Shown piece by piece: positions 384 to 29,732 of a stretch of 64,000 bases of DNA (the first letter of the stretch is position 1; each line of letters opens with the position of its first letter). The stretch is from positions 932,501-996,500 of the forward strand of contig NC_135246.1 in NCBI RefSeq assembly GCF_947623445.1, given 5' to 3'. Source of the stretch: Clavelina lepadiformis. Its lineage: Eukaryota; Chordata; Ascidiacea; Aplousobranchia; Clavelinidae. Under the pieces are notes generated by a model. It was not told the DNA's origin and searched no databases. It worked only from the letters and a program-made list of their open reading frames with translations. A program made the translations under genes and the position numbers.

Positions 384-3300
384 CTTTCCCTGCATTTCCA
401 CGATGGCTGAAATTAGACGTTTGACATCATGAGGAGTGGAGAAACATTTGGTCAAATCAAGTTCTACTAAATTGTTCCTTTGCTCAGATAAAAGCTTGCT
501 CAAGATAATAGTCGAGGACGAGTTGATTTGTGTATACCCCAGGTTCAGATCTCCTGGAAAGTCTTTTATGATTTTCCTATTCAACTTATCGTTTGCACAT
601 TCAGCCGTGTCAACCATGAGCGAAATATATCTCCGTTTGTTGTCATCTACACAAACATATGAGTTACTAATACCTCATTGCAATGAACTACAGTAGGTTA
701 CAGGAAATAAAAACAAAGCAGCCATGCAGAAAATAAACGTAAAGTTCCAGAAAGTGATCCTAACTATCAAGAACACAGGGACCAATCGTCAAGGAAAACT
801 TAAACTGTTGATAACATTATTTACAGTATTTCAGACGAGTTTAAATTGTTTTGAAAGTTTTACACTGAGCGATCGAAAAAGATAAAAACAAAACATAAAA
901 AAGAAAGCGCTTTTAGTGAGGCCACAACAAATACATAAAGATCAGAGTATAATTATCCAAAATAAAAATGAAGTATCACACTTGACAATAAATAAATAAC
1001 TTTTTAAATATAAGCAGTTGATTGTTAAAACCTTATTACATGATGTACATTTCAATCGTTATTTGCTTCTACAGCATGCATTTACCCTTTTGCCAGTCAT
1101 CCCAATCCAAATACGTGAAGTGCTTCAGCTTTAAGGTTAAGGCGTCAGCCAAGATGTTCCTTTTATTAGCAATATCTACAGCAAAAAAGCTTCATTTGTG
1201 TATGTTGTAATATTTGAAAGCACAAAAAATGGTTAGAAAAATACACTTCAAATGTATTTCACAAAAACTGTACTGGATTCAATCTGTTAAACCAAAGAAT
1301 TCCAAATTTCTGAACAAAGGTGTTTGTAAGTAAGCATGGAAGGGTTAAGAATCTATTTCTAACAGTGAATTATGTCCTTCTTTATCATATGCATAAGCCT
1401 ATCTGACATCAAACTTGTTTGTCGAAAAAATGATGTTTTACAGTAATTATATATGGTCTCATCGGTCTATGCTATTTTTTGCTCAGTATATTGAATAACT
1501 TAGTTGATAAGCCCCTAGTTAGTAATTATACTTAGCTCATGAATAGTTTATTGCATAACATTAAAATGGAACTCATTTTGCCCAAGATTCGAAATATAAA
1601 ATACTGCTCAAAAATTTAGTCATCTTATGGGATTTTCGATAAATAGAATATTTTTGTTATATTAAATTCCATTATTGTTTTGGTTAGTATTGTCAGATGT
1701 GATACATGTCATAAGGAACATAGTCACCGAGACTTCTTTAGGCCGTCAATTCGTTGTCATTCCTCATATGACATATGCCTTTGATATACCACAATCGCTA
1801 TCCTTTTATAATGACGTATCATATTGGCAGCCTATTATCCACAAAATTGTCTTGCAGTTTTAAAATAACTTGCAATCTTCTATTTTGTCATAGCATTTCA
1901 AGTTTAATCCTATTTAGTATGAACAGTCAGTAGGGATGAATTAAGTTTCTTGAATTTGGTCCAAAAACAAATTTTTCAAAACAAAGACCAAATGTTTTGG
2001 GTTAAATCAAGTATTATACTGTATTGTAATATTGCAAATATCTGTATCATAAAGGTTGTCAGCGCATAATTAAAATTAACAGCTTGTCAGGTCCAGTAAC
2101 TACCAATAACAGAGACGAAATTTTGAATTTTGAAAGCGCTTCTTTATAAAATTGACATATTTAGGTTCCATGTAATTGTACGTGCAAAACTGATCACATT
2201 TGCCTTAGTTATGGATTTATTGCAATAAAGCGTTTACAGAAATGTGTTAATAATAGGTTGGTTGAATCGAAACCGGAAAAAATTTAGGTGAAGACCGTGT
2301 GTAGACATTTTATCCCGATTTAGTGGGATTAATTCGGTATGCGGAGATTTCGGTAATACTTGAGTAAATAAACATCGACATCGACATGTTTTACTTTTCT
2401 AAAATACTGGACAAGAAGCTCTTTGCTGAACTTTTTAGAGAGTAAAGAAGTAATATTTTGGTATTCGTGAACTTACTGTAGGTTTGTATTTAACCACCAT
2501 GTTGTTTCTAACGTTCAATTGTCCCCAAAGCAGTGGTACCCAAGCTTAATTTTAAGGATGTTCATATCCATAGGATTATCATATCATACGATAGTAATTT
2601 CATCAAAGAAATATTATCGACACTAAAAAACGTAAAATTATTTGATTAAGTCCGTCAAGGTAAAAGGTACTATGACACCTTATCGAAAGATACTTTATCG
2701 AACGACACTTTATCGAACGACAGCTGATCGAAACGACAGATGATCGAAAGACACTTTATCGAACGACAGTTAATAGAACCGACAGTTGATCGAACGACAC
2801 TTTATCGAACCGATAGTTGATCAAACCGACAGTTGATCGAACGACACTTTATCGAACCGACAGTTCAAGCAAGATTTTTGCGTGTTTCTCAAACATTGAA
2901 ACAATAAGCCATTGTGATGTGCGGTCTTTGTAATGGTGTACATTAATGAATTGTGATGTATATGTCATAAAGTTGACGATTTATATTTTATATCTATATT
3001 TTAGATTTGTAGCATAAAGTTGACGATTTCGCATAGTGGCCGGCCCGCCCACATATTAATAAGATATCACAAGAATACTCACTAGAATTACTAAGTACGA
3101 GATTGTCTGTACAGTAGACTAGACTAGTCGTTATAGATACAAAGAGTAAGGAATTGAAGGCAAAATTTCATAGCAAGGGGCATATCGCTGCCTGACTTTT
3201 ACACAAAGTAGCTTCTTGAAAGTGGTCTTTGTCCCAGCTTTTTCAATTCTTGTTGTACAACGGTTCGAGGACTTCCTGGCCACGTTCAGTGACGACGATG

Positions 3301-6300
3301 AGCAGCACTTGTCTGAATACATTGAATATTTCGAAACTACTTGGATTGGAAACTACTTGGAAACTACTTGTCAACCTCTATTTCCTATCCGGTGTTGGAA
3401 TGTCTTCCACCGGGTTCAAGATGACCTTCCACGAACGAATAATAGCATTGAAGGATGGCACAATGCGTTCAGCAAGCGTGTCTCAATATCCCATCCGACG
3501 CTTCGCAGACTCGTCAAAAATATTAAGCGGGAACAAGGTTCCAACGAAATGTTTATTGAGCAATTGAGTGCTGGAATTGCTGGCCCACCTCGGAAGAGGC
3601 GCTACGACGCTGTCAACCAACGGCTGAAGAGCATAGTCGAAAATTATGACTCAACGAATATTGACATAAAAAGTTATCTTCGAGCAATTGCACACAACTT
3701 GTAATTAAATGAATGCGATTGAAATGTGCACTTCGTCAGTTGTCGTGCTTTTAACAGTGCATATCGTCAGTTGTTTCGTTAAATTGTGGTTCTTTTAACC
3801 CTATCCTAACCAGGCTCGCGAGTTTACTAAAAAACTAGGTGTGGCCGACTCCGCACACACATTTGCAATCGTTAATTACTAGAAAACTATGCGTCGTAGA
3901 CTGATGAGATTTTTACATGTTAGCAGAAACATAATCTGGCTTCCTGTATACATCATAATTGTAAAACTAAAGAAAGTGAATTTAGTGTAAATTAGGTATT
4001 TCTAAAAGTGACACATTTCTAGAAATTCTTCTTGTTACGCCGCGCCCCCGCTGTGAGAAGAGAACGAAAGAGAATAGTTAGTCAAGTTATTGGTGCGTAA
4101 ATGAGTAATACGCTTCAATGCGGAGAGAGAGCAAAATTATATAAATATCACAATATCTCAAAAATTACAAAATTTAACTTTATCAAACAAACATGGACAG
4201 ATAGCTGAACATTTTTTATGAAAAGTCACCAAATTTTAATTTTCTACAGCAAACAATGCAACGGTACGCCACGTTTTGCTATGACTGTGTGCGGGAGAAG
4301 CAACAGTCGATTCGATCAACTGTCGCTTTGATCAGCTGTCGGTTCGATAAAGTGTCGTTTGATCAACTGTCGGTTCGATAAAGTGTCGTTCGATCAGCTG
4401 TCGTTTCGATCAGCTGTCGTTCGATTATGTGTCGTTCGATAAACTGTCGTTCGATTAAGTGTCGTTCGATAAAGTGTCTTTCGATCAGGTGTCGCGTCAC
4501 GAAGGTAAAATAACATCAAAAGCGTATTTGATTGAAAAGTTTTATTAAAGATTAAAAAATTGTCAAGTTATTATTTTGATGGAATTATTTAGATCATTTT
4601 CAATGTATTCCGGTGATACTGTCACTCTGTTCTTGATAAATAATTGTGTAGCTTTTTGTTTAGAGTGATTAAGTATGTTATTTCTATAAGCATTAGTATG
4701 TCATTTTTTAAAGATAGTCAAAACGTTGCATGCTAAACACATGCACATATATGCACTTTACAAACAGGCTTGGTGTTACAGAATTAATACCTTTTCAAAA
4801 GGATTTATTAATTGAAAATCATGTGTACATATTTTGTTGTAATTTAGTACTATATTTACAGAACTTCAATCGGGATTTCACATAATTTTCTAGCCCAGAC
4901 TAAAGAGAACTAAATTACCTCCATGCAATTGAAGATCTTCAATCATTTTGTGGATCCAATCAAAGTCCTCGTCAACTTTAAGACATCAACAGCGTCAATG
5001 TAAACGGTTCAAAAATTTGAATAAAAAATAAGCAAAGATATATTGTTAGAGTATACCAATGAAGATACATTGTCACAGTTTAAAACACTAACCTGTTTCT
5101 AATGTAATGTCAACTAAAAGCCCACAAGTGAACTGTCTCACCATTGACCAATGATCTAAGAAGAGTGTGCTGGTGGTAAAATCTCGAAATTCAGCGACAC
5201 TCATGTTCAGCAAAATGTAAAGTGCAGCAAAACACTCTTGTATTGTCTGATGAGAGAAGTGCATCTGACGTTTTCCTCTGATAATCCTTGAGTTGGGACC
5301 TTTACGACTGTGATGGACAATAACAAGATCCTGGACTGTTTCTACATCTAACCCTTCTTGTAAAAGTTTCTGCTCACTGATTACCACTGTAGACTTCTTT
5401 GTTGCTTCAAAAGATACTTTAGCAAGACCTTGAATGTTCCGTGTAAAGTTATCTTGATATTCAAGCCGAACATTGCTGCAAAACTGCAAGTCTGAAAATA
5501 CAGTGATATAAACTCTGCTGAGTGAGGTGATGTCTGGAGTAGAAATTCCGACTTTAGTCAAACATGCTCTAGCCACAAACTGGACTATCAGAGGGCTGAG
5601 ACAAAAATTTATGAGATGAGGGGCATCAACTTCAATTTTGGTCCATAAACGGTCATCTTTCGCTCCAGTGTAGTAGACAAACAGAAGCTTGGCATCATCA
5701 GGAGAAAGATCGTGAAGGTAATATGTGGCATCTGGCCGAAGTGGCTTTGGGATGGTAAGAGCAGAGTGTGGCCGCGACGTCACTATAACGAAAACATCTG
5801 GTAGAAAGGTTCGATTCCAAATACAAGCAACTAGCTCACATGCGCTCATTTTATCCTCATAGCTAAGTTTTGGAAGCGCTTTTTGAGGAAAGCTCCAGTT
5901 CACTTGGTCGAGACCGTCCATCAGCAAGATGCACTTTTCCTGATTATCCCGGATCCAATCCCAAGCTAAATCTTTGGTCCCGTCAGACAGTCCTGAATAA
6001 GGCTTATCAATGAGAAGCTCACGAAGTGAAAGCGGGACATTGTAGTCAATGTCAGTGAATTTAAAATTTAAGCTGACGTAAGTGGGCCAATTATTGCATT
6101 TTTTGGATAAACGTTTGTAGAAAACTGTTTTCCCAGATCCAGGGTTCCCCACCACCAAAATAAATCGATGTTTATTTTTTTCTTCAACCAGCTTGTTAAA
6201 AGATATTTCTTCGCCTTTCTTGAAGTTTTCTTGATGCTGTTTCGTTACTTCCATTGATGGAATGTACCATTTTTTAGGATGAATTTGCTGTAAATAAAGG

Positions 6301-9300
6301 TCCACTTTCACTACACGAGGATTAACATTTGGAATTGAAGATGGATCAACATTTTCAAACGAAACTTCAAGATGGACTTCTTCTGGTTGCTCAAATTTTC
6401 TTTGATAATGCAGAAGATCTATAATTGCTTTATCTTCTGCAATGCAAGCAAAAGCATTAAAAACACTGGACAACAATCAATGCACTTCAGTTACTTTATT
6501 TTAAATTTAAATAAAAGCTGAATATACATGAGCATATTTTAACGTGAAACAGAGCTATCATAACTTTTTGTCAAAATCTTTTATTTCAATTTCATTCGAT
6601 TTGCAAATTTTAACGATTGCGTAAAGAAAATAGAGCGGAGAAGTAATAAAACTAAAAATCTATTGCATGATATTTTATCGGAATTTTTACCCTCAGATGT
6701 TGGAAAATATTTCCAGTTTGAGCGTTATGAAAAATTATTTATCAACACGGTCCACCAACATTGCGTTTGAGCATTGTCATATATTTCTGTTTAAAATGTT
6801 TTGAGAATTTTTCTTCGAATTAAGAAAAGTTTATTAAGAAGACTAAACGGAGAAAAATATTCTTGACAATTTGCTAAAGCCATTAAAAAACAGTCAGACT
6901 GTCGGGCATCGACCGCACAGAAAAACTGCAGGTATTTTGCTCTGACCAACAACCAGCAACAAAGAAATAAAACAAGCCGGGTATTATATGTTTTTATTTA
7001 CGTAATTTGTAGAGAAAATTTGTAAAATAAAACAAAAACAATACCTGATGTAACCAAAGAGCAAACATTTCTTGTTGGATTTGGTGGTTTTCCAACTTCG
7101 TTCCAATTTAACTCTAAGCATGAAAACATTAGCATAAGATAGAGATCGTATTAGATTTCCTAATTGGTGTAAGATCCATCTATAAAATTAGTGTAATCCA
7201 AGAAAGCATGAGAATTACGTTCCAAAATAATCTGTGAAATAAATCCGAAAACTACATTTTGAACAGTAACAAAAGCAACAAGTTGTTTTTACCTTTTATT
7301 TTGTCCAATAGTCCCTGGAATTTATCATCATATGACCCCTGGCTAAAATCATGATATATCTTTCCAGCAGTAAGTAAACCTATTGTAACGAAAAAAATAA
7401 ATTCTAAGTAGTTTATAAAAAGTAACACGAGGTAGACGTCCAGAAAAGAAAGAAAGGTTTTTAAAACTGACCACTTCAACACATACACGAAATCCTTGAA
7501 CTTGAGGAAAATTGAAATCGTATTGTACCAAAATGTTAGAATTATTTCAGAAAAACTGAAAATGTTCTTTGGGATTTACAAAGCAAATATGTGTTGAAAT
7601 TTAAGGTTATATCACTTGCAGTATGTTGCTGAAGCTTACCCACAAGTCACGTAATACACAAATTTAAAGTTTAAAGTATAGTTAGGTATATAGATTAAAA
7701 TAGGTTATAGATGGGATATAGGTTTAAAGTATAGATGCTACAGTTTTCATATTTTCTTGCTATTTTAAAAGTGAGGAGAAATTCAAAAAACAATTTTGCC
7801 TTAAATTAAGGAGTACTTGTCAGTATATATACTGGTGAAAAGGATTTTTAATAATATCTAGTGGTTAGCAGTTGTTACCGAAAATGTATCACAAATTTAG
7901 CTTCCTATTATGATGGAGAGAGCCGTCATTATGACGTTACCATGTAAAAACAACATGCTTGATGACTAAGGTTTGTATAAGGTATGATAGTAGCGGTTGG
8001 CTAGCTAAAGAGGTTCTGATGGAATACGTCTCCATAGGTAATTGATTTGTAGCAGGCAATGGTTGTTTTCAGCATTGGAATGTCATAAATGACAGCATAT
8101 GAACTGGTAAAGCAGTCTTTGTTATGGCAATTACCGGTACCGGACTAGACTAGACCCATTAGCCAAAACTGCCCTGCACAGTTGGTTGGTATCTATTGTA
8201 CATCAACCAAAACAAATACACCAACGAAAAGCTATTTTAGGCTTATTGAACGCATAATGTTTTTATTATACACTTAAGTACGCAATAATTATACCTATTA
8301 CTCTTTAGTTGTCCGATCCACGAAACATTCTAGTCATATATGATCCAAATAACTCATTCAAATGAGTCATCCTCAATTTCCTTTCATTATGACGTAATAC
8401 GAATCACTAACTTTGTCATAATTAAGCGATGGATGTGCGTATTTTTGCGATTTTTTATGGCAATACCTGCTTAACCACTACATATTAATACAAATCCTTT
8501 CTATAATATATTTATTGGCGACTACTCTGATTTAAGGCCGACTTGGTTTTGGACTTGCCCTTCGCTTTAATATTTCTTCCTTTAAACGTTTTTGTCAAAA
8601 TTAAGCATACCTGATAGTTATAGCTATCAGTGCGTAACACATACTTTTCCTAACATAAATCTAGCACTTGTTTTGGCTTGACAGTCAATATGCTTATAAG
8701 GAATTAGTAGGAAAGGAAAACTATAACAAAGTAGCTCAGTTTTAAGCATCAACTTTCGTTCAATCCAAAAATGACTGAGAACTAGTCTGCGAGATATCGC
8801 ATCATCATGTTGGTATCATCACCAACCTGTTTAAATCAACCAAACTTCCGGAAACTAGATCATCATTTTTTACGAAAGTCATTAAATTTATAAGCAACAT
8901 TGTATTCGGGTTCGCCATTGTTGGTATTCGTGTTCCCCCAAATCTTCCATAAAGGCGATATTCGGCGAATCTATTCGAGTTTGGTTTCCCATCCCTAGTT
9001 ACAACTACTGAACGGTACACTTTGAACTAGATCCTTTCTTCAAAGGCTCGTTACTTTCCACGCTTTAACAATCTCAGAAATATATTCTAAGATATGTGTC
9101 TCAGAAAAACAATCTCAAAACGACAGTTCTGGAAGCTCTTTTTGTAATTGGAAGTCAATGCTTATTGAGTTTTTCAAAATACAGTATTGCTGTTAGAGCA
9201 TTTTACTTTGTTTTTTAAATGCAAAGAAGTTTGCAATTGTGCAATAAACCGTGTGATTTCGTTGCATAAACACAAACATATTTCTGAATGTACTGCATGT

Positions 9301-12300
9301 CTCCATTTATTTTCGTACAGAACAAAGCAAATAAAATAAGATTTAAAATCAAACAACTACATACCGGACCAGCCTTTAATCTTGTAGTTTGCTTGGGTAA
9401 CTATGGGTATTATAGGCTTCTTCAAGTCACCAGCGTATTTGCCTTCTCTTTGGCAGTTTTCACTTTGTTCATATTTGTCCGACAAAAACATTAGGACCAG
9501 CGAAGAATTTTCTACAGCTTGAGCCATGCTTTCGTATAGCTGTGTGCCCATCTTCTCTTTGTCAATCCACACATTGTAGCCGGCATCCGCAAGCCTGTCA
9601 TGTATCTAAAACATAAACCGCTTTCTATAAAAATACAAAACAGAAAAAGGAATTTTTGTGAAATCATCGCAAAGCATCAAATGACCCACTCATATGGAAA
9701 AACCGCGTGAAAAATAAACGAAAATATTTCACGTGTTATTTATAGTAACTTATATTTTACCGTTTTAATGGTGTGTCAATTCTCTACTTGATGTGCGATG
9801 ATTACTTTACGGTGTTTTGGTGTTAGTTGATTAATTGTGATTATCGTTGTTTATCTCACGTTTTGTGCGTTCTAATCTTATCAATATTTTGGCACCTGGG
9901 TCGTGGGGGCTGTTTAATTAAATAAATTGCTTTCTTGGGTTTCACTGATAGTGTCACGGTTCACATGGGAAGACAGTCTGGCATTTGAAAGCAAGAGTTT
10001 TCGGTTATATCGTATTATCTTATATATCATAATACGTAATATCATCGTTACATGATGTTATATAATACTTGGATGAGAAATCCAGGTAATACGCTTTAAA
10101 TTCTACATCTTGGACGGAGTCTTGTGAAACTCCTGAGCATAGAACAAAAGCGCTGGTTGTTTCAAAATTGTTCAAGTTGTTTCTTGAAAAATAATGAAAG
10201 AGACATGGAACGCTCATACATACCACATCTACATTACGTTTGATGAAAGATCTGCTCACATGATTTGCTTAACGCGCCACTGCTTGTCATTTGTTTAAAG
10301 TTTTCATGATATTATGCAGGAGATTATGCATTCTAGGTGTTCGTATAAAAATTATTTTGTAATGAACACAATACACCTTTAGTTTTAAATAAAGCTTTCC
10401 GTTTACCACAGTAACAACAACAACAACAGTAGTAATATCAATACACCATAGTAACAGTTGGTTGCGCAGTGTTAATGTAATTTTTTGCCACATAAAGAAA
10501 ACATTAGGACATTTCTGTTTAGGTTCCAAGTCACTTCGTAAAAATATCGCATAGTTTTAACATATCTACTTTTTGCGGTCAATGTTCTTTAAGTGGATTA
10601 TGACCTCACAAATTACGATGATTTCATTAATTTTTGTTTAATGTTTCCCGGGAACAACTTGATGCAAATGGATACGCAGCTAGTCTTAACTGTTTATAAA
10701 ATGTTAACCACAGCCCCTATACCCACGGTTAAAGTTGCGAACATCTTTTTATGTCTTAAATTGGGTTGCGTAATATCACTGGTCATAGGATTTACGAGCG
10801 TTTTCTTGGCTGACGCAATGCGTTGACCTACAACTAAGTTGTATGCTGTCGAATCAGGTATTTACCTACGATATACAAATATATTTATTATGAATTTACA
10901 AACGTCAACTAACTTTAAGAGCCAATATTTTATCATCCCAGTTATAACTGATCATGACGTGTTTCTCTTTCTTGCCATCCGTTCCTTCATCCGGAATGTT
11001 TTTGCGAGTAATTGTTGACTTTGCATCAGTTTTCACTTTTGGACTGACTTGCTCAGTCAAGTACCGGTCTTCGAGTGTAGATATATTTTGACCTAGTTTA
11101 TTGCAAGCAAAAAGAAATTCACGTGTAACAAACGCTTTTATTACTTTGAGGTTTTTCCTCTCAGTTTACAAGACGCACCAATTCTATATAAGCTACAAAC
11201 ATGTTTGATTAATATGTCATCATAGCAGACGTGTTTAACGGCTTGAGAAGACACAAAAAAGGGCGTGGCCAGTAAATGCACGATGTGCGCAACCAACCGC
11301 ATTGCTTCGGTTTCGTTCTCTAAGTGGTACAATGGATGGTAGTTGAGTTAAACAACCTATATCTTATATCGTATATGACAACCTGTGCTGTATTTATACT
11401 GTAAAATCAGATTGCCTTGTTTATTTTATGGCGGTAATATTTTGAACAGAAGGTGAGTTACTTAAATTCTTGTTGATTTAATTGATCACAACCATGTTCA
11501 GAATAATCTTATTCGAACCGTCTAATTCTTGGATCTTTAATAGATTCATAAGCGTGTTGCACGTTTAAATTTTTTGATATGGATTAATTATTACAATCAT
11601 TTAATAATACCGATTAATTATTGTTTTGCTTTAATTAAACATTTTACCTTTGTGACAAGTGATGGTAGTACTTTGGCCATCACCTATGTTTATTTCTTTG
11701 GAATCCTTGATTTCAGTTTGAGTAAACTCTCTGTTGTCCTGATACTGCCTCTGGTCATAGTAAATTTGAGGAACAACCTTTATAACAACTGGCCCTGCAT
11801 GAAATGAAGAAAAATCGGGAGCTTTTTATATAAGAAATAAGATTTATATAAAATTGATTCCTAAAATTAGGATTTTATTAAACAAAACTAAGAAACACTT
11901 GGACAAAATGCTATGACCGTGACATGCGTTCTTATATCTAAAAAAGTAAACGGTCTGCAAACAGTAAACGTCGTGATCTTATTTCATCAAAACTGCTCTT
12001 TAAGATAAATTTAAAGGAAAAATCAAATCAATGAAGTCAGTTAAAAAACCTGTTTCCTGCACATCTTATTATTTCCACGTTTCAGTGTACAGCATAGTCA
12101 AATCAAGGTTAATGCAAAGATGTCTCACATTTTTTGCATTTGCACTGCTTTATGGATTTAGAGTTTGACATTTCACGTAAGAGTCAATTAATTTGTGAGA
12201 TTTAAGCATAAATTAGTCATATTGACGTCACTGAGTATTTTGACGCACAAATTAATGAATTCACGTGAGTAACTTTACCACATAAAATATACTAATAATT

Positions 12301-12526
12301 GTTTGTATCATTAAAGAGTGTTTAGAATCGCATGTACTACCTGTTTCACATAAAAAGCTGAACAAATATCATGGAAGCAATAGTAGCTCAGGACTGTAAT
12401 TGCAACGTGGCAAAAATCAAAAAAAAGCTTTGCATGTGGATAAGGAATGTTTAGTTTATTGGACAACTTACCAGCAGTCGACTTATTTTGCTGACTCACG
12501 TCGGGGCGCGTTTGAGATCCTCCCAT
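384..12526 (-). CDS. TIR-NACHT-LRR receptor (NLR-A), 3' end beyond window
   Basis: Nine coding exons join in frame (795 codons so far): 12472-12526, 10914-11092, 9365-9605, 7293-7379, 7045-7113, 5093-6436, 4919-4975, 1086-1175, 384-646. The ATG at 12526 gives MGGSQTRPD and the first donor is GTAAGT. A TIR domain spans about residues 62-187, from HVMISYNW through GYNVWID and SENCQRE to KIYHDF. E132 sits where NADase TIRs carry their catalytic Glu. NACHT follows: Walker A GNPGSGKT at about 307-314, Walker B LLMDGLDQV at about 380-388, then VIVTSRPH. The last three exons encode post-NACHT helices and an LRR-like segment (LVELDLTKCF). A further exon may lie at 1-37 after a TTTTAG acceptor, in phase but unproven. 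The family role is a cytosolic sensor that oligomerises on nucleotide binding; signalling through TIR is inferred. The gene is the tandem paralogue of the gene at 20781-29732. Its intron between 1175 and 4919 carries a transposon. Confidence 0.85.
2676..2870. repeat. Left subterminal tandem repeats of the Mutator-like element
   Basis: The stretch is a run of units alternating GACACTTTATCGAAC and GACAGTTGATCGAAC, with small variations. The right end of the element carries the same units in inverted orientation. Confidence 0.8.
3216..3704 (+). pseudogene. Mutator-type transposase, C-terminal fragment
   Basis: An open frame of about 160 residues ends at TAA and has no plausible start, so it is a remnant of a longer protein. 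The diagnostic stretch is RTNNSIEGWHNAF, which matches the conserved C-terminal segment of MULE/Phantom-type transposases (N-N-S-x-E-G-W-H). It is followed by HPTLRRLVKNIKREQ, also typical. The DDE catalytic core expected upstream is not visible; the sequence before 3216 has stops. It lies inside the element with Mutator-like ends and target-site duplication, which agrees with the assignment. It is not expected to be active. Confidence 0.7.
3795..4301. mobile_element. piggyBac-like MITE, right-truncated, nested copy
   Basis: The sequence begins TTAACCCTATCCTAACCAGGCTCGCG and is nearly the same over its length as the complete copy at 32395-32956. The match stops at GCGGGAGAAG, losing about 25 bp of the right terminus, and the Mutator-like right end repeats follow at once. 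The copy therefore inserted into the Mutator-like element before or as that element's right arm was rearranged. Relative to the complete copy it lacks about 20 bp near 4055. Confidence 0.7.
4306..4497. repeat. Right subterminal tandem repeats of the Mutator-like element
   Basis: These are about ten units of TGTCGTTCGATNAA with variants, the inverse of the array at 2676-2870. Together the two arrays form a long imperfect terminal inverted repeat. Confidence 0.8.
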
Positions 12527-20780: not shown

Positions 20781-23700
20781 TCACTTCTGCGGGCTGAGTA
20801 TGACGCCATAGCCAAGAACAACCTCCAATGTCTACAAATTAAAAGTTTTACTAAATATTCTGTGTTCAACTACAAACAAACGTGACAAGATATGAACAAT
20901 ACCGAGTCATCCAGCTGGTCTAATATTCCTTGAATTCTAGATTTTTCTTCGTCATTAGGAAATCTAAACCCTCCATTATCATCATAGAAGCATCCCCTCA
21001 TGTCCAATCTATCTTCAACCTGTGCAAAGAATTCGGGAGGACGAAGCTCCGGAAGTTTATTGTCACTGATGTCCAGCCACTGTAGCTGCAATAAAATGTT
21101 TGTAAAATTAAACTACTCCCTATTATAAACTTTTTTATTTCACCATTAACTCACTCAAATTAAACCATTATAATTAACTAGTTGATAACTATTTTGCACT
21201 GTGTAGCTTAGACCTAATAGCCTACTAGAAAAACTGAAATTCTTGTTTTTTTAAAGAAAGAAACAAAAGTTTTAATCGACCAACTAAAACAGGAATCGAG
21301 TGTTAGTTGTAAAAAGATTTCATGACATTAAAGTCGCAAAAATATTTTTATTTTCTAAAAAAGTTAAACTTTTGATTTTGACAAAACTTAAACAAGCTGC
21401 TAATCCTGGCTGGCCTAAACTGAACCAACAAAACTTTGTCATTTCCTCAATAAAGAAATTGATTTTAACGCGCGAGCTAAAACGTGGATTCTACATCCGT
21501 TGTAGAATCAAACAGTGACAATTTAGTCGCAAAATAACTTCCCAGTTCAAAAAAATTTAAAGCAAAATATTCTGACTTCGACTGCACAGAGATCACAACA
21601 AACCATGCTCGTTTTGAATGACCGGCAAGATACGTTTATGACGTCATAGGGGCAATATAAAAGGGCATTGTGACCGCGCTTTAACAAAACGTTAACAAAT
21701 AAAATAAAAAGCTAACCTTGGCCGGCATTTGTATAATTGCCGAAATTACTCTTCCCACATCAGCAGGAGCGGAGAAGCATCCGGACAGATAAAGCCCCTT
21801 TAAATTATTTTGCTTGGATAATCGTTGACACAAGAGGGCAGTAGTGGTCGTGTTTAGAGGCAGCCAATTCAGGTCAAACACTTCAGGAAATTTAGCTTCA
21901 ACCTTCGTGTTTAGATCATCATGAGCGCACTCGGCTATGTCAACTAGAAGCGAGATATATCTGCGCTTGTCATCTAAATAAACATATTACTTATATCTGG
22001 TTGTAATGAGCCCGGTTATAGGAATTAAATACAAGGCGACCTTGTTCGTATTGGTGGTTAGGTTACAGCTTATAACCGCAATCATTTATGGTAAAAACTG
22101 AAATATTAATAAAACCTATTTCAGATGATTTTAAAAAATAAACTAAACTCCATTCAAAAGGAATAGCAGATATTTAGGCTAAAAAGTAAAAAGATTTTTA
22201 AACTAGATGCAGTGCGGAATGCAGAGTATAGCCTATGGCAGTTTTCGCTGGGATCATACAGTTTCTGGTGTTCAGAAGCAAAATTCTTCTGGCGTGCCAG
22301 GTAGCAGCCGGTGTGCGGCTCACGGTCTAAACCGGTTCGGCAATTTGATAGGCAAGCTGCAGCCTTTTACAATGGAAATATTTTAGAAATAGAAAAAATT
22401 AATGTCTCTTTTTGTTTTTATTAGAGACATCGCTTTTCTCCTGGTGTACAATAATGTTTTGGCTAAAAATTCTCGAAAGTGCTCCTATTATACCCTGCAG
22501 TCTGGAATACAGCAATAGTCGGGAAATTCACAGCAAGAATACTATCTGACAGTAGCTTATTAGGCCAAGCAAAAGTGAGTTGTTTGACTTGGCAATAAAA
22601 CAGTTATAAACCGAACAGTTATACCTATTATACCCTGCAGTCTGGAATACAGCAATAGTCGGGAAATTCACAGCAAGAATACTATCTGACAGTAGCTTAT
22701 TAGGCCAAGCAAAAGTGAGTTGTTTGACTTGGCAATAAAACAGCTCAGCTTCATAAACGCATGGTTGTTGCAAACTATGTACACCATACATACTTCTATC
22801 ATTTAGCTGCTTATATAACATGGAATTACCTCTGCTCCATTTATTCCAGGTCAATGACGTAAAATAATCCAGATTTGATTCTAGTGCTTCAATCAAAATT
22901 CTTTTCTTCTCTTCAATATCTAAGATATGAAAACATAGGTTGCTTTAATGTAGGCCTATGTTATAACACTTTTAAGGTTTAAAAAATAACTACTTGAAGC
23001 ACAACATATGTGCATGATACCATGTAAGTTTACTGCACAACATCAAAATAAAGGTACTTTACAGGTATAGGCTTGCTTCATCAGTTACTTTGCGGCCAGT
23101 TCAAAAATCTATGCCATAGTCAAATCAAGTAATCATAATTATAAATAAATAATAAATCTTTATAATAAATGAATAATAATAAATAAAAAGTAATAATAAA
23201 ATAAAACAAATAATAATAATAATAGAAATAATATTAAATAATAACATAATGAATCAAATAATTTAGAAACTTTCTTTGCGTATCAACTTGCAGTAAGCAA
23301 ACAACACAACCGTGATAAAAAACTAATGTTTTAAATACCAGTGACTACTTATAGTGTATAATTAGTAAAATTTGGCACGGAATCTCTGCCCGCCAAACTC
23401 AGCAGAATATCTGCATAGGCAAACAACATCTGCTTTGCTGGCCTGAAGGACACCCCTCAGGTGAGCAGCATTTATAAATTTGCCGGTTACAATCAACCAA
23501 ATCAAAATACAAGCAATTAAATTGAAAAATAACAAACTAAAGCTTAAATTCCAAAGTGCAATAAATGGTGAAAAAGGTGAAAAAGGTTTTCAGTAGTTGA
23601 AGAAAATTTCAAACGGTAAAACAGTGGACAAAGGCCGATATTTAGTTTACAGATTGTGACCATAAAACAACATCTTATAAAGTTGCATGGCAAAGTTAGG

Positions 23701-26700
23701 AACTGTCAACGCCTAGTAGGGAAATTCTCTTCATATCGGTACGTGTTTGTGTATAATGAAATAGTGATAGAAAATTTCATTTCTAAAAACTGGCAACTTC
23801 GGCTTACCAAACTTGCCAAAATATGCCGGAATTTACTCAACCGTCCTATACAGTATGCCAGTATAGAACAACTAAAAACATCTACCTGCAGCAGTTTGAG
23901 GATCTTCCGTAAGATTTTGAATCCATTCCATATCATCGTCACCTTCAAAATATTGAAAACATTTATGCTAATACAATTTGCTTTTAAAATTTTTAAAAAA
24001 CTGCGATTAAATTAGTTTGGCAGATGTGAACAATATAAGTTACTGAAAGATGTCTAGAAATAGTCCTTCATAAATAGCGTTTTTAATGCCGATGCCAAAA
24101 CATAAATTAGATTTGGACAACATTTTGTGACAGTTTGGCGCATTACTTTATTCATCACAAACCTGTTGATGATGCAATGTCAACCAGCATACCACAAGTG
24201 AACTGTCTCACCATTGACCACTCATCTCTGAAGAGCTTGTGTTTGACAAAATCTCTGAAATCAGCTACACTCATGCTCTGCAAAACGTGAAATGCGGCAA
24301 AGCACTCTTGCACAGTTTGGTGGGAAAAGTGGAGCTTTCTTTGTCCTTTTATTACCTTTGCACTTGCACCCTTCCGGTTATTAAAAACAATAACAATGTC
24401 TTGAACAGATTCTACGTCCAAACCTTCTTGTATAAGCTTTCTTTCACTGATGACTACGGTGGACTCTTTGGTGGCATCAAAGGCTACTTTGGCTACACGC
24501 TGAACGTTGTCGTTTAGATGAAGCTGTTTAGAACTGTCGCAGTGTTGCAGGTCATTTAAGGCTGTAACATACACCCTGCTTAATGAATTAAGAACTGGCA
24601 AGGAATTCTCAGACTTAGACAGGCACGCTCTTGCCACAAACTGGACAATAAGTGGACTGAGGCAAAAGCTGTGTAAATTAGGGGCATCTGTTTCCATTTT
24701 GTTCCAGAGGCTGTCATCAACTGCTCCAGTGTAAAAGCGAAATAGCTGCTTGGCATCTTCAGAAGAAAAATCCTGGAGATAGTAAACGGCTTTCGGTCGC
24801 AAGGATTTGGGAATGGCTAGCGCGGCGTGTGGCCGAGATGTAACAACAACAAACACATCCTTTAACAAATTTCGATTCCAAATTGATGCAACTAGCTCAC
24901 ATGCAGACATCTTTTGATCAATACCAAACCTTGGAAGCTTTTCAGGCAAGTTCCAGTCCACCTGATCAAGTCCGTCGATCAGCAGCATACACTTACGTTG
25001 GTTTTGCAATATCCATTCCCAAGTCAAATTTCTGGTTGCTTCAGATAATTCTGAATAAGGACGGTCAATAAAAAGCTCACGAATGGAAAGTTGACTTTCG
25101 TAGTCAATGTCAATGAACCTTGCATTTATGCAAACCGAATGTGGGAATTTATCACTTTGTTTGGACAAACGTTTGTATGACACGGTCTTGCCAGACCCTG
25201 GATTCCCAACAATCAAAATAAATCGATGTTTCTCTTTTTCTTCAAGTAGCTGTTGAAATTTAATTTCTTCTGAGTGCTGAAAGTCTTTCTGAAGCTGCTT
25301 CATTCTTGTTTTTGAGGGAGTGTATTCTTTTTCCAGGTTCTTCTGCTCGTTATAAATGTCTACCTTCGCTACTCGGGGATATACTACGGGAATCGAAGAT
25401 GGATTAACATTTCCAAATGACACTTCAAAATGAACATCTTCTTCATCCTCATACTTCCTTTTGTAATCTAAAAAAGTCTTGATGGCTTGTTCACCTGCAA
25501 TAAACCAGCTGCTCAAAACATTGTGCAACGCACGTTTAAAGCATGAAAACCATATTTTGATCAACTGCTACTAGTAGAAGTTGAAGGTCATGCATAACTC
25601 CACTTTTCGTGGTTGGATAAAGGTTTGCTGTGAAATAGCAATAAAATGAAGTTTAAATCCCACAAAACTGCTAATATTAATAAAATTACGCCAAGGCTTG
25701 TCTTTAGTTACTGGTTTCGGACATGTCTTTCTACTCACTGTATTTGTTCAGAAATATATTTATTTGCCTGTACATGTAGTCCTATACAATACATGGACAA
25801 CTCTCAAAAAACGCAATTTAAAAATCTGCAAATATTTCTTTAATCATTATAAATGTTACCACAGCACAGATTTCTTGCTGGAGTCTATAGGCCTTAAAGC
25901 AGGCAGGCTGTGTAAGCATAACCTTGTGCAGTATTACTGTAGGTATTTTTTGTGGTAAAACATCAAGTAAAAATTATACCGGTCAACCTTCGTCCCACGT
26001 TCGCATAAATACCGGGAGTTAGAGTTGCCGTACTAGAAGTTGATGGTGGGCTGGATGCCATTGGTTGATTATCTGCTGATGTGAGGGTGTGAGGTGTTTC
26101 ATTGGTAACCGTGCATTCGATGGGTTGCTTTATTTGTGTAGTACCAGGAGTGCCTAAAATAAATTAATAATAAATAAAATACTAAACAAAATTTCTCGAA
26201 GTATGTGTGTCTCAAAGTGCTCAAGCGTAAGCAGAACTAAAACTAAGTTTTTTTGGTAAATTTGTTTTAATCAACCCTAGGCTAATATGGTGCTCAATAA
26301 CAATCATAGACATAGCACCACTGCATAGTTAACAGCATGCACGTTGTAGGCCCCCGAGGCTATGTCGCGTTTTCCCGTTCGTTGATTAATTGTGTCAACA
26401 CTCAACACCAACTTGGCTCTTCTCTTCAGCCCAAAGGATGAAGCTTTTTTCTCCGGATGCTGCGAACCGCTAATCCTAAGCAACCGCAAGCACTGATGCT
26501 GATAACTAGGGCAACCAGTTTTTTGACCTAAAAATTTTAAATTTTGACCTTAAAATTTGCAAATTTTGACCTCATTTTGACCTAAAAAGTTTATATTTTG
26601 ACCTTATTTTGACCTAAAAAGTTTACATTTTGACCTTATTTTGACCTAAAAAGTTTAAATTTTGACCTCATTTTGAAAAACGCTATACTGATAGTCTCTA

Positions 26701-29700
26701 CACTGTCTACAGCAACTTTCTAATCTAAAGCTGCATTTAAAAATGACAAAATGCTTTTCTAGTGTTGACTTTTTTTTCGTTTCTGCGTATTAAGATTGAC
26801 AACTTGCAGTTTCAAATGCAATGACGTCACATCGTGACGTCACCAAACGCGCTGAAAAGCCTTCCCTCTCTTTGTGGCTTGGGTTCTAAGTAAAATTTGC
26901 GGGACTGGAATTGTTTGCGGTACAAGAAAAGAGAAAAACGGAAGAATAATATTACAAAATGGTTACAAAATTACAAGTTTAATAGATTTTGACCTAAAAA
27001 AAAGACCCGTATTTTGACCTAACGTAACATTTTGACTTTATCTGACCTAATAACTTCTATACCACACGTCGTACAAAGCTGAAATTTGTTTTGTGCTTGT
27101 TTCATAGCATTCTGAGCAGGTAAAAAAAAATTGACCATATTGACTTTTGGTTGCCCTACTGATAACCAACCAATGAACAGATGCACACTTTAATACTTTC
27201 CGCAGATCAAACATCGATCCTCGCTTATCAGTGCTTGTGAGCTAATGACATCAGTTCTACGCACCCAAGCAAAACAATTGAACTTAAGAATCGCCGATAG
27301 AAAACGCTTCAGTCTTATTACCAACGATTCCGTCTAAGGCCGCCTGAGACCTGATTGTACAAACATGGACCAGCCTGACTGAAACTTCTGCAGCATCCTA
27401 AGACTTGTGGAAAATATCCCACGTGGTCAACTCTCTAACTAGTTGCCTTGTTGAGATTTCGAGTGTGAGGTACTTTAAGCACTTTACTGCTCATTAAAGT
27501 CTCCAAGCACTACATCAAATGAATCCACTCTTGAACTGTACTTGGAGAGGTCCGATAACAAGAGGCTTGCGCGGTGATAAATACGTCAGCTTCGTAAACT
27601 TCTCACACCTGAGCCACAAACCGTGAAGTTCTATGTCACTAGACTGTCAGCCACATCCCCTTGTCCGTGTTCTCTCTTTCAATGCCACCCAATTGGTAGA
27701 AAACGAGATGCACGGGATGACAGACCGCAACTTGGGGCAAAGGAAGTGTCTGACCTGTGGGGAGCAGAACCACCTGACGGCAAAATATGACAAAATATCT
27801 GCATAAAAAAATTTGTGTGTCTGTTGTTTTGCCAAAACATCTCTTTCGAGTGCTCTCTAAAAGAGTTTCTTGTTCCTTGATCTACGCCCCTGCCTACCCA
27901 TAATGGATCTCTTCCACCTCCCCAAGAAAGCTGGGTTCAGACTCGGAAAGTCAACCGTTGACCAGGTCACTCTTATGACCCAGTACATCAAGGAAAGCTT
28001 AGACGCTAATAAAAATCCGGCACTCTTAGAATTTAAAACTTAAAATTATTCACTCCATGTTATAACGTCACAGTGACAAATATAATTGCCCAACACCCAA
28101 GCAAACCTGTGGCATTTGCAGCTTGGCTTGGGCCTGCAGCTTGTTCAGATAGAACTCGATCAAGATGTGGTTTAACTGGAACAATAACGAAGAACTTCTA
28201 GTATGTATTCTTTTATGCGATGTTGTGAAATAAGATGAACCGAGATAGTCATAAACGCTTAAATATCACGCACAAGTGGAGTTGTTAAATAGCCACATTT
28301 TTTAAAGTGAAATAATTTGGACATATTTAACATATTTGTTCATTTAACATTCTTTAACACTATAGCGTACATATAATGTATGTTATTGTTATGTGCAGAA
28401 CATAACGTTGATAAGATATTAAGCAAAAGCAAACCTGGTTCATTTTCAACGTTTTCTCTAAGTTCAGTTTGTTGAGAAGAACTTGATGGTTGGCCGGTAA
28501 ATGGCGCTAAAGATTAATGATTTTACATTCAGAAAATTTGTATAAAGTACAGCAACGAAATTTTCCCGCAATAAAGACCACGTGAAAGCACACTGCATGA
28601 CAACTTACAAGTTTTGGCTCCTGCGATTCTGCTTCCCACTCTTTCTGGCAGTTGTATTGAAGGTTGATTGTTACTGGAATCCTGTGGTGGCGCTACAAGT
28701 ACAACAAACATTAGAATTCTTAAGGGGATGAGATTTTTCTAACAATTGATTGGAATTTTATATCGTTTTTGAACTTCTTCCAAAACTAATTGAAGGTCAG
28801 AATAATTGTTAAGGTAATAATTGCCACAAACTTCCTGTCCGCCACATACTAACCGGATAAAGCGGCTTACTTGACACAGTTAATGCAAGCACGCTCTTAC
28901 TTTCAAATTAAGAGAACTTACATTTCATCTCTAAATTACAAAGAGTGGCTCCCTCAGCAAAGTTAACTGATGTCTGATTTCCTATATCTACAGAAACAAT
29001 ATTAAGCAAAAATAAGATTTAAAACGAGCAATGTACTGTAACAAATCTGTCATAATTTTTAGATACTACCATTGGTCACACATATCTAAGAGCTTCTTCA
29101 AACTCACCTTCATCCACAAATAAGGTACAAATGCAAAATATTTTTAACAGTCTTGTGCAAAAACGTGGTTAAAATTATGCAATCACCTTGATGAAAAAAT
29201 TGAATATCACCAGCAGCCTGATGGATCTCTCTGTTATCATGATGATGAATCTCAGTGGTAATGTTTAGAGTTACTGGGCCTGAAAAGGTACTTACTTTTA
29301 ATTGCGGTGTCGAAACAAATACAAATGCCATCCATTGTTTGATATTTACCAGCGGCTGTCAGTTTCTCCACTAAATCAACCAATCCTTGCTCAGCTACGC
29401 AAACACTCTGGGAAGCTTCAGTGCTTTCCAACCTTTGTAGGCCTTGACCTGAATCAGCAAAATGTTTAACTCAGAAAAATTGAGAAATTTTTAAGTCAAG
29501 TTTGCATGAAAACGTTGTTTTATATTGTTTTAAATTTCTTTAAACTTTAAGTTTTAAAATTTTATGAAGCTAAATTCTACTCACCAGGGGAACTTCTTCC
29601 TTCATGTAATATAAGATCAAGTGACGTTTCCGGCTGTTCCTCGTCTTGACCAGATGAGGACTCATTACTTGCATCATGTTCTAAAGTTGTTGACTCATCT

Positions 29701-29732
29701 TGATGCAATATTTTGTCTTCCGGCAACGACAT
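20781..29732 (-). CDS. NACHT-LRR receptor with non-TIR N-terminus (NLR-B)
   Basis: Fourteen coding exons splice in frame to 924 codons plus TGA: 29585-29732, 29350-29448, 29187-29279, 28922-28987, 28609-28692, 28435-28506, 28107-28175, 25980-26153, 24163-25494, 23886-23942, 22830-22919, 21717-21973, 20903-21085, 20781-20831. The ATG at 29732 opens MSLPEDKILHQD. Residues 1 to about 268 are acidic, Ser/Thr/Pro/Gln-rich and without a recognised domain; one exon carries EIHHHDNREIHQAAGDIQFF. NACHT has Walker A GNPGSGKT at about 365-372 and LLIDGLDQV at about 441-449, then VVVTSRPH. Helical exons follow, then LRR segments (LKGLYLSGCF, LQWLDISDNKL). The expected role is a cytosolic nucleotide-dependent sensor; the ligand is unknown. 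From NACHT onward it parallels the gene ending at 384 exon for exon. The intron between 26153 and 28107 holds a hAT-type element and retroelement remnants. Confidence 0.85.
21125..21451. repeat. 325-bp direct repeat, intronic copy
   Basis: It is the counterpart of 19205-19529 and lies in the NLR-B intron between exons 21717-21973 and 20903-21085. Both copies share TAATTAACTAGTTGATAACT and GCTGCTAATCCTGGCTGGCC. Confidence 0.8.
22484..22743. repeat. Tandem duplication of 120 bp in an NLR-B intron
   Basis: Positions 22484-22603 and 22624-22743 read as identical by eye, with a 20-bp spacer, giving a 140-bp period. Each copy begins CCTATTATACCCTGCAG and ends GGCAATAAAACAG. Identity suggests recent duplication or an assembly artefact. 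Confidence 0.85.
23140..23262. repeat. (AAT)n-rich low-complexity tract
   Basis: A run of AATAATAAATAAAAAGTAAT-type sequence lies in the NLR-B intron between 22919 and 23886. It has no coding potential. Confidence 0.7.
26507..27158. mobile_element. hAT-type MITE with internal TTTTGACCTA array
   Basis: The terminal inverted repeat TAGGGCAACCA is perfect over 11 bp at both ends. It is flanked by an exact 8-bp direct repeat, CTGATAAC, at 26499-26506 and 27159-27166, the size made by hAT transposases. The interior begins with a tandem array based on TTTTGACCTAAAAAGTTTA (about 26517-26677), with related units near 26987-27050. No transposase is encoded. It lies in the NLR-B intron between 26153 and 28107. 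Confidence 0.75.
27690..28041 (+). pseudogene. Decayed non-LTR retrotransposon fragments
   Basis: Two coding remnants are visible on the plus strand. At about 27690-27805 a frame reads RKCLTCGEQNHLTAKYD, a CCHC zinc knuckle whose last Cys is Tyr, as in a gag-like ORF1. At about 27920-28041 another frame reads KAGFRLGKSTVDQVTLMTQY, matching the reverse-transcriptase motif AGFR-x-G-(K/R)-S-T-x-D-Q of non-LTR elements. The pieces are only about 115 bp apart, whereas an intact element would have an endonuclease and more RT between them, so a large internal deletion is implied. Stops separate the frames. The fragments lie in an NLR-B intron on the strand opposite to the gene. Confidence 0.6.

Follow-up and report, generated by a model that had tools for sequence, protein, structure and literature searches.

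Whether a chordate genome encodes TIR, NACHT and LRR-like domains in one protein is the question raised by a stretch of 64,000 nucleotides from the tunicate Clavelina lepadiformis (C7:932501-996500 of a 209 Mb genome in 95 contigs; hereafter the window). The first-pass annotation had proposed that such exons are spliced together. Used as a protein query, the joined model matched a near-identical NCBI entry from the same species, LOC143465263 isoform X1 (930 residues; P0001 below), which bears Pfam PF13676 and PF05729. By tblastn, this protein maps to the minus strand, with ten exons inside the window and two just past its first base (Table 1). The ten window exons (12526-384), joined by script, encode 844 residues that equal residues 1-844 of LOC143465263 letter for letter, and all nine window introns start with GT and end with AG. 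The proposed join is thus borne out by an independent gene model with exactly matching exon ends, and is also supported by 17 further predicted proteins that combine TIR_2 with NACHT and by a conserved genomic exon order. Chance or misread splicing was ruled out by the exact agreement with the NCBI model together with that exon order.

Eight of the nine junctions are in phase 1, and the ninth, within the TIR, is in phase 0, as is the exit of exon 10. Frame-neutral modules are therefore exon 2, the TIR block formed by exons 3-5, the linker exon 6, the NACHT exon, exon 8 and exon 9. In the spliced protein, TIR_2 covers residues 113-232 (E 1.7e-24, 87.1 bits; the PF01582 TIR model scores only 20.4 bits) and provides the N-terminal effector-type domain that marks animal NLRs. 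NACHT covers residues 350-515 with 48.8 bits, against a curated Pfam cut-off of 26.7, and its exon encodes Walker A GNPGSGKT and Walker B MDGLDQ. NB-ARC reached 14.9 bits, under its cut-off of 23.5, and was rejected as the central ATPase since NACHT passes. The domain search thus agrees with the parallel that had been drawn to plant TIR-NLRs, with NACHT in place of NB-ARC; the C-terminal end gave no Pfam LRR match. In a structure model, residues 256-930 have a NOD2/NLRP3-like fold and domain order, and the alignment with NOD2 extends up to residue 905.

TIR exons among the NACHT genes of Clavelina

Genome-wide, we scored at least 97 NACHT places (97 of 137 candidates) and at least 77 TIR_2 places. 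NACHT lies within 12 kb of 28 of the 77 TIR_2 places, and is downstream on the same strand in 28/28; 27 of these pairs are on C4 and the other is LOC143465263. The N-terminal motif exon that we call N3 was scored at 51 places, 49 of them on C4, exon 2 of LOC143465263 being too diverged to be counted. Twenty-six of the 49 head N3-TIR-NACHT units and 21 head N3-NACHT units without a TIR between, absence meaning that the genome search scored no TIR_2 place; of the remaining two, one is followed by a TIR without a scored NACHT, and the other is an additional N3 ahead of a counted unit. Counted from the TIR side, 26 of the 30 scored C4 TIR exons sit between N3 and NACHT on the same strand. Fifteen C4 loci were inspected as DNA (L010, L011, L037-L049), eight of them picked for the absence of a scored TIR nearby. 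All three TIR exons are present in seven of the 15; none was found in the eight picked loci, seven of which keep N1-N3. Among the 21 TIR-less units, the seven checked in this way (L043-L049) have no TIR exon. At the protein level, 17 of 68 matches carry both TIR_2 and NACHT (eight on contig 25070715 and nine on a second Clavelina contig set). Protein searches returned no TIR-plus-NACHT protein from another named tunicate species, from limited candidates, so that absence is not established.

Between genes with a 31-38% difference in their NACHT exons, the TIR exons remain about 95-97% identical. L010 shares 95.1% of its TIR exon bases and 61.5% of its NACHT bases with L041, and 95.1% and 69.3%, respectively, with L011; L011, which has the TIR, shares 97.0% of its NACHT bases with L044, which lacks it. 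Given this near-identity despite NACHT divergence, the TIR acts like a phase-1 cassette that can be exchanged. A NACHT tree of protein models with 47 rows (18 with and 29 without TIR) requires eight changes in TIR presence, at least six of them forced by well-supported branches; 12 of the 29 TIR-less rows lack all of N1-N3, and the models may be truncated for at least P0042, P0043, P0045 and P0048. The TIR tree was reduced from 77 to 65 rows by dropping P0009 (two rows), P0010, L018, L034, L050 and six identical rows. In it, the C4 TIRs fall together in a single clade (100/97), while their NACHTs split into three deep groups. It follows that the two gene halves differ in their history, and exchange or conversion of the 5' half would be the simplest reading.

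LOC143465263 itself is on a separate branch, with 55% TIR and 36% NACHT identity to the L010 type. Its NACHT groups with its closest NACHT relatives, those of the TIR-less P0002 and P0003 (100/100), and its TIR stands beside the C4 clade with modest support (82/88); both tree tools warn of long branches, P0001 among them. The gene may have gained its TIR, or P0002 and P0003 may have lost theirs. The TIR exon of LOC143465263 has a low ratio of nonsynonymous to synonymous substitution rates (dN/dS) against the C4 copies; the corresponding NACHT rows were badly aligned, owing to unequal segment extents, and were not used.

Enzyme signatures, proposed mechanism and alternatives

A profile built on 12 TIRs, some from Clavelina and some from other species, and searched at E up to 0.001, matched 21 PDB sequences: the CRISPR-associated Cat1, plant RPS4 (E 9.7e-7), SARM1, tir-1, an ADP-ribosyl cyclase, the TIR protein 3h16 and one TLR entry. 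By this search, the structure-solved relatives are mostly hydrolases of nicotinamide adenine dinucleotide (NAD). In the profile alignments, E181 of P0001 falls on RPS4 E88 and the SARM1 glutamate, in helix C; RPS4 E88 is described as the glutamate required for NAD hydrolase (NADase) activity (PMC7414095). Of 77 aligned TIR segments, 76 retain this catalytic-type Glu, the exception being one of two segments of the Rotaria protein P0009. The 77 comprise 43 protein segments and 34 segments of genome loci, several representing the same gene twice; short matches were excluded and L033 gave none. A Cys lies three residues before the Glu in 71 of the 77. In our reading, it would occupy the same position as the Cys neighbouring the glutamate of plant TIRs, which has been tied to synthesis of 2',3'-cyclic nucleotide monophosphates (PMC9153377).

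The NACHT group has a signature of its own. Walker B reads DGhDQ in 45/45 proteins in which both motifs were found, and it also ends in Q in 11 more in which it was found alone, giving 56/56 among the C4, C5 and C7 relatives (once as DALDQ). Of eight other genome NACHT loci scanned, three have DGhDE (L002, L003, L008) and the remaining five gave no recognisable motif. An E-to-Q change at this position slows hydrolysis in other ATPases, so that a long-lived ATP state is possible.

On the strength of the enzyme relatives and Glu of the TIR, the Walker B Gln and the precedent of a TIR-NLRC4 chimera, we consider that LOC143465263 is probably an intracellular tunicate NLR whose NACHT wheel gathers NAD-cleaving TIRs, the C4 array supplying cores for one moving TIR cassette. 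The protein begins with a disordered N-terminus, continues through the TIR, NACHT and helical domains, and finishes in a short LRR-like end. In the resting state, its NACHT-LRR part would keep the monomer closed until a ligand acting on the C-terminal part opened it; the NACHT domains would then assemble into a wheel, and the TIRs, meeting at its hub, would cleave NAD+ or make a signal of the cyclic ADP-ribose type, leading to cell death or alarm. The sensor and effector roles that the first-pass annotation had proposed, given expression, for a single protein would both fall to P0001. Laboratory TIR-NLRC4 chimeras are reported to show that an animal wheel can turn on TIR output (PMC7414095). 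At the level of the array, the related C4 genes would offer many sensor cores, among which one TIR cassette is inserted, lost or exchanged.

Several observations weigh against this mechanism. Searched as a single sequence, the P0001 TIR matched only Cat1 in the PDB, and weakly (E 0.0041), the enzyme matches stemming from the profile and the fold; a conserved Glu alone is not proof of NADase activity. Values of TIR dN/dS for close C4 copies are spread from 0.23 to 1.42 (14 pairs with changes, 243 bases), and constraint is not shown there. The whole P0001 sequence matched only NLRP3 chains in the PDB, its structure model is of moderate confidence (mean predicted local distance difference test score 72, predicted template modelling score 0.61), and the LRR-like end is short as well as lacking a Pfam LRR match. 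Wheel assembly is assumed by analogy with other NLRs, and a Walker B Q in place of E may make the nucleotide cycle unusual.

The TIR could instead be a scaffold, the NACHT wheel seeding TIR-TIR assembly towards MyD88-like adaptors and NF-kB signalling. Many animal TIRs act in this way, and the TIR profile weakly matched one TLR entry (TLR15/TLR2, E 9.2e-4). The other 20 of the 21 matched PDB sequences, however, are plant, bacterial or SARM1-type TIRs, and with the Glu so widely retained and TIR_2 scoring far above PF01582 (87.1 vs 20.4 bits), we regard a scaffold role as rather unlikely. We give still less weight to the idea that alternative splicing skips the in-frame cassette, leaving an NLR without TIR as the main product and giving the TIR form a minor or regulatory place. 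The phase 1-1 TIR block would allow it, sister genes without a scored TIR are common (21/49 N3 units), and the NCBI name "isoform X1" leaves room for other isoforms; yet no TIR-less isoform sequence was encountered for LOC143465263, and the low dN/dS of its TIR exon against the C4 copies speaks for the TIR form. That the TIR exons and the NACHT exon come from different transcripts, or that their join is an annotation error, seems very improbable. The intron between exons 4 and 5, inside the TIR, is about 2 kb long, and three of the family models retrieved have a TIR without a NACHT (P0056-P0058). Against this stand phases and splice sites that are consistent throughout, joined proteins from two contig sets, and the same-strand N3-NACHT intervals that enclose 26 of the 30 scored C4 TIR exons.

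Returning to the NAD-cleaving wheel as the preferred mechanism, a broader proposal can be put forward tentatively. In it, a chordate NLR array would have had one NAD-cleaving, phase-1-flanked TIR cassette repeatedly placed, removed and copied among fast-diverging NACHT-LRR cores, with the Walker B Gln perhaps holding an ATP-bound wheel, as an animal equivalent of plant TIR resistosomes in which the effectors could be swapped.

Exon coordinates and accompanying observations

Table 1. Exons of LOC143465263 and the neighbouring paralogue, in window coordinates
Feature	Position	Strand	Phase	Content	Basis
Exon 1	12472..12526	-	ends in 1	start MGGSQTRPDVSQ...	tblastn, exon-joining script
Exon 2	11648..11794	-	1-1	N3-type N-terminal motif exon (PVVIKVVPQIYYDQRQYQDNREF...)	exon-joining script
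Exon 3	10914..11092	-	1-0	linker and TIR start (HVMISYNWDDKILALK)	exon-joining script
Exon 4	9365..9605	-	0-1	TIR middle, catalytic-type Glu E181 of P0001	TIR_2 matches
Exon 5	7293..7379	-	1-1	TIR end (LLTAGKIYHDF...)	exon-joining script
Exon 6	7045..7113	-	1-1	TIR-NACHT linker	exon-joining script
Exon 7	5093..6436	-	1-1	NACHT and subsequent helical domains	Pfam NACHT, motifs, NOD2/NLRP3 fold
Exon 8	4919..4975	-	1-1		tblastn, exon-joining script
Exon 9	1086..1175	-	1-1		tblastn, exon-joining script
Exon 10	384..646	-	1-0	start of short LRR-like end	predicted strands/helices at residues 789-840
Two further exons (L009), outside the window	about -140..-331 and -403..-468				tblastn
LOC143465951 (P0003), neighbouring paralogue	20784..29732	-		same NACHT-LRR plan, no TIR exons	tblastn exon map

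The genome search likewise scored no TIR_2 place at the P0003 locus. Exon 1 of LOC143465263 (12526-12472) begins MGGSQT, which presumably fits an N-myristoylation pattern; the paralogues start otherwise (MSxxEE...). Exon 2 is 52% identical to P0002 and, over residues 19-54, 46% identical to the C4 type. The conserved N3 motif has HHDxRQYQ-type repeats in the C4 copies, is common to NLRs with and without TIR and to P0069 (see below), and possibly serves homotypic assembly; the N3-type motif gave no Pfam match in P0001-P0003. A RHIM-like motif in exon 2 (INIGDGQSTTI) matched no RHIM entry when Pfam was searched at E values of up to 5, a search whose filters drop most weak matches. Bacterial defence libraries gave weak TIR matches only to P0001 (best PADLOC bSEFIR, E 1.3e-10), and NCBIfam Thoeris ThcB4, for which the cut-off is 220 bits, scored 21 (E 1.2e-4).

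The intron between exons 8 and 9 holds an insertion (2674-4494) with two inverted arrays of 15-16-base repeats about 1.5 kb apart. Its arms are up to 95 nt long and 84-92% complementary among the seven first-listed pairs, and it looks like a foldback-type mobile element. The 176-codon plus-strand frame between the arrays (3174-3704) had no Pfam match above cut-off.

Other Clavelina genes combine these parts differently. P0004 (L050, C4:700000-709999) has a TIR, 58% identical to that of P0001, followed by an LRR-like end, and no NACHT; at C5:22.49-23.93 Mb, 18 more TIR_2 exons form an array, and no NACHT was scored within 12 kb of them. P0042 (contig 2727647) is predicted to unite NACHT, an LRR-like tail, ZU5 and a caspase, recalling parts of NLRP1 and PIDD with the caspase attached. 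P0069 (contig 5383449) joins the N1-N3 N-terminus of the NLR relatives to a protein kinase. No near-identical copy of the kinase part was found in the genome (matches are 25-63% over parts), so that the gene may vary in presence between individuals or genomes, or the model may be a chimera. Triple-TIR forms and a TIR-Kelch protein also occur among the predicted proteins (P0065, P0078, P0070).

Comparison with known systems

A TIR-NACHT combination is not in itself new in animals, since it has been reported from amphioxus, Hydra viridissima and Cassiopea xamachana. The amphioxus study (2008) named TIR-NACHT proteins, called them absent from vertebrates, and tabulated 4 TIR and 49 NACHT proteins in Ciona (PMC2575513). 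Like P0001, these proteins join TIR to NACHT in an invertebrate chordate; unlike P0001, they come, in what that account describes, without mention of an LRR, an array or a cassette, and the likeness is one of description only. In H. viridissima, NACHT/NB-ARC with TIR was described in 2020 (PMC7642931), and in C. xamachana, TIR was given as the commonest NACHT partner in 2021 (PMC8260672). Both thus pair TIR with a NACHT-type ATPase, as P0001 does, whereas these accounts of Hydra and the surveyed medusozoans report no NACHT proteins with LRR, and P0001 has an LRR-like end. Among the literature matches listed, which did not cover subscription journals, we found no report of a tunicate TIR-NACHT-LRR protein or TIR cassette array.

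Vertebrate NOD2 and NLRP3 share the fold and order of P0001 residues 256-930; P0001 differs in having TIR for CARD or PYD, a Walker B that reads DGLDQ and an LRR-like end that is short. With plant TIR-NLRs such as RPS4, it shares an N-terminal enzyme-type TIR, a central STAND ATPase and an LRR-like end, the ATPase being NACHT and not NB-ARC, and we infer that the two joins arose separately. An NLR wheel that drives TIR NADase activity is known from the plant proteins and from laboratory chimeras, and with P0001 the same question can be put to a protein that occurs naturally in an animal. The array, for its part, shows how sensors of a single gene array can exchange an effector domain, in an animal closely related to the vertebrates. 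A further precedent for the proposed machine is the engineered TIR-NLRC4 chimera described in PMC7414095, which, as in P0001, sets a TIR on an animal NACHT-LRR wheel; there the combination was made in the laboratory, whereas in P0001 it is natural.
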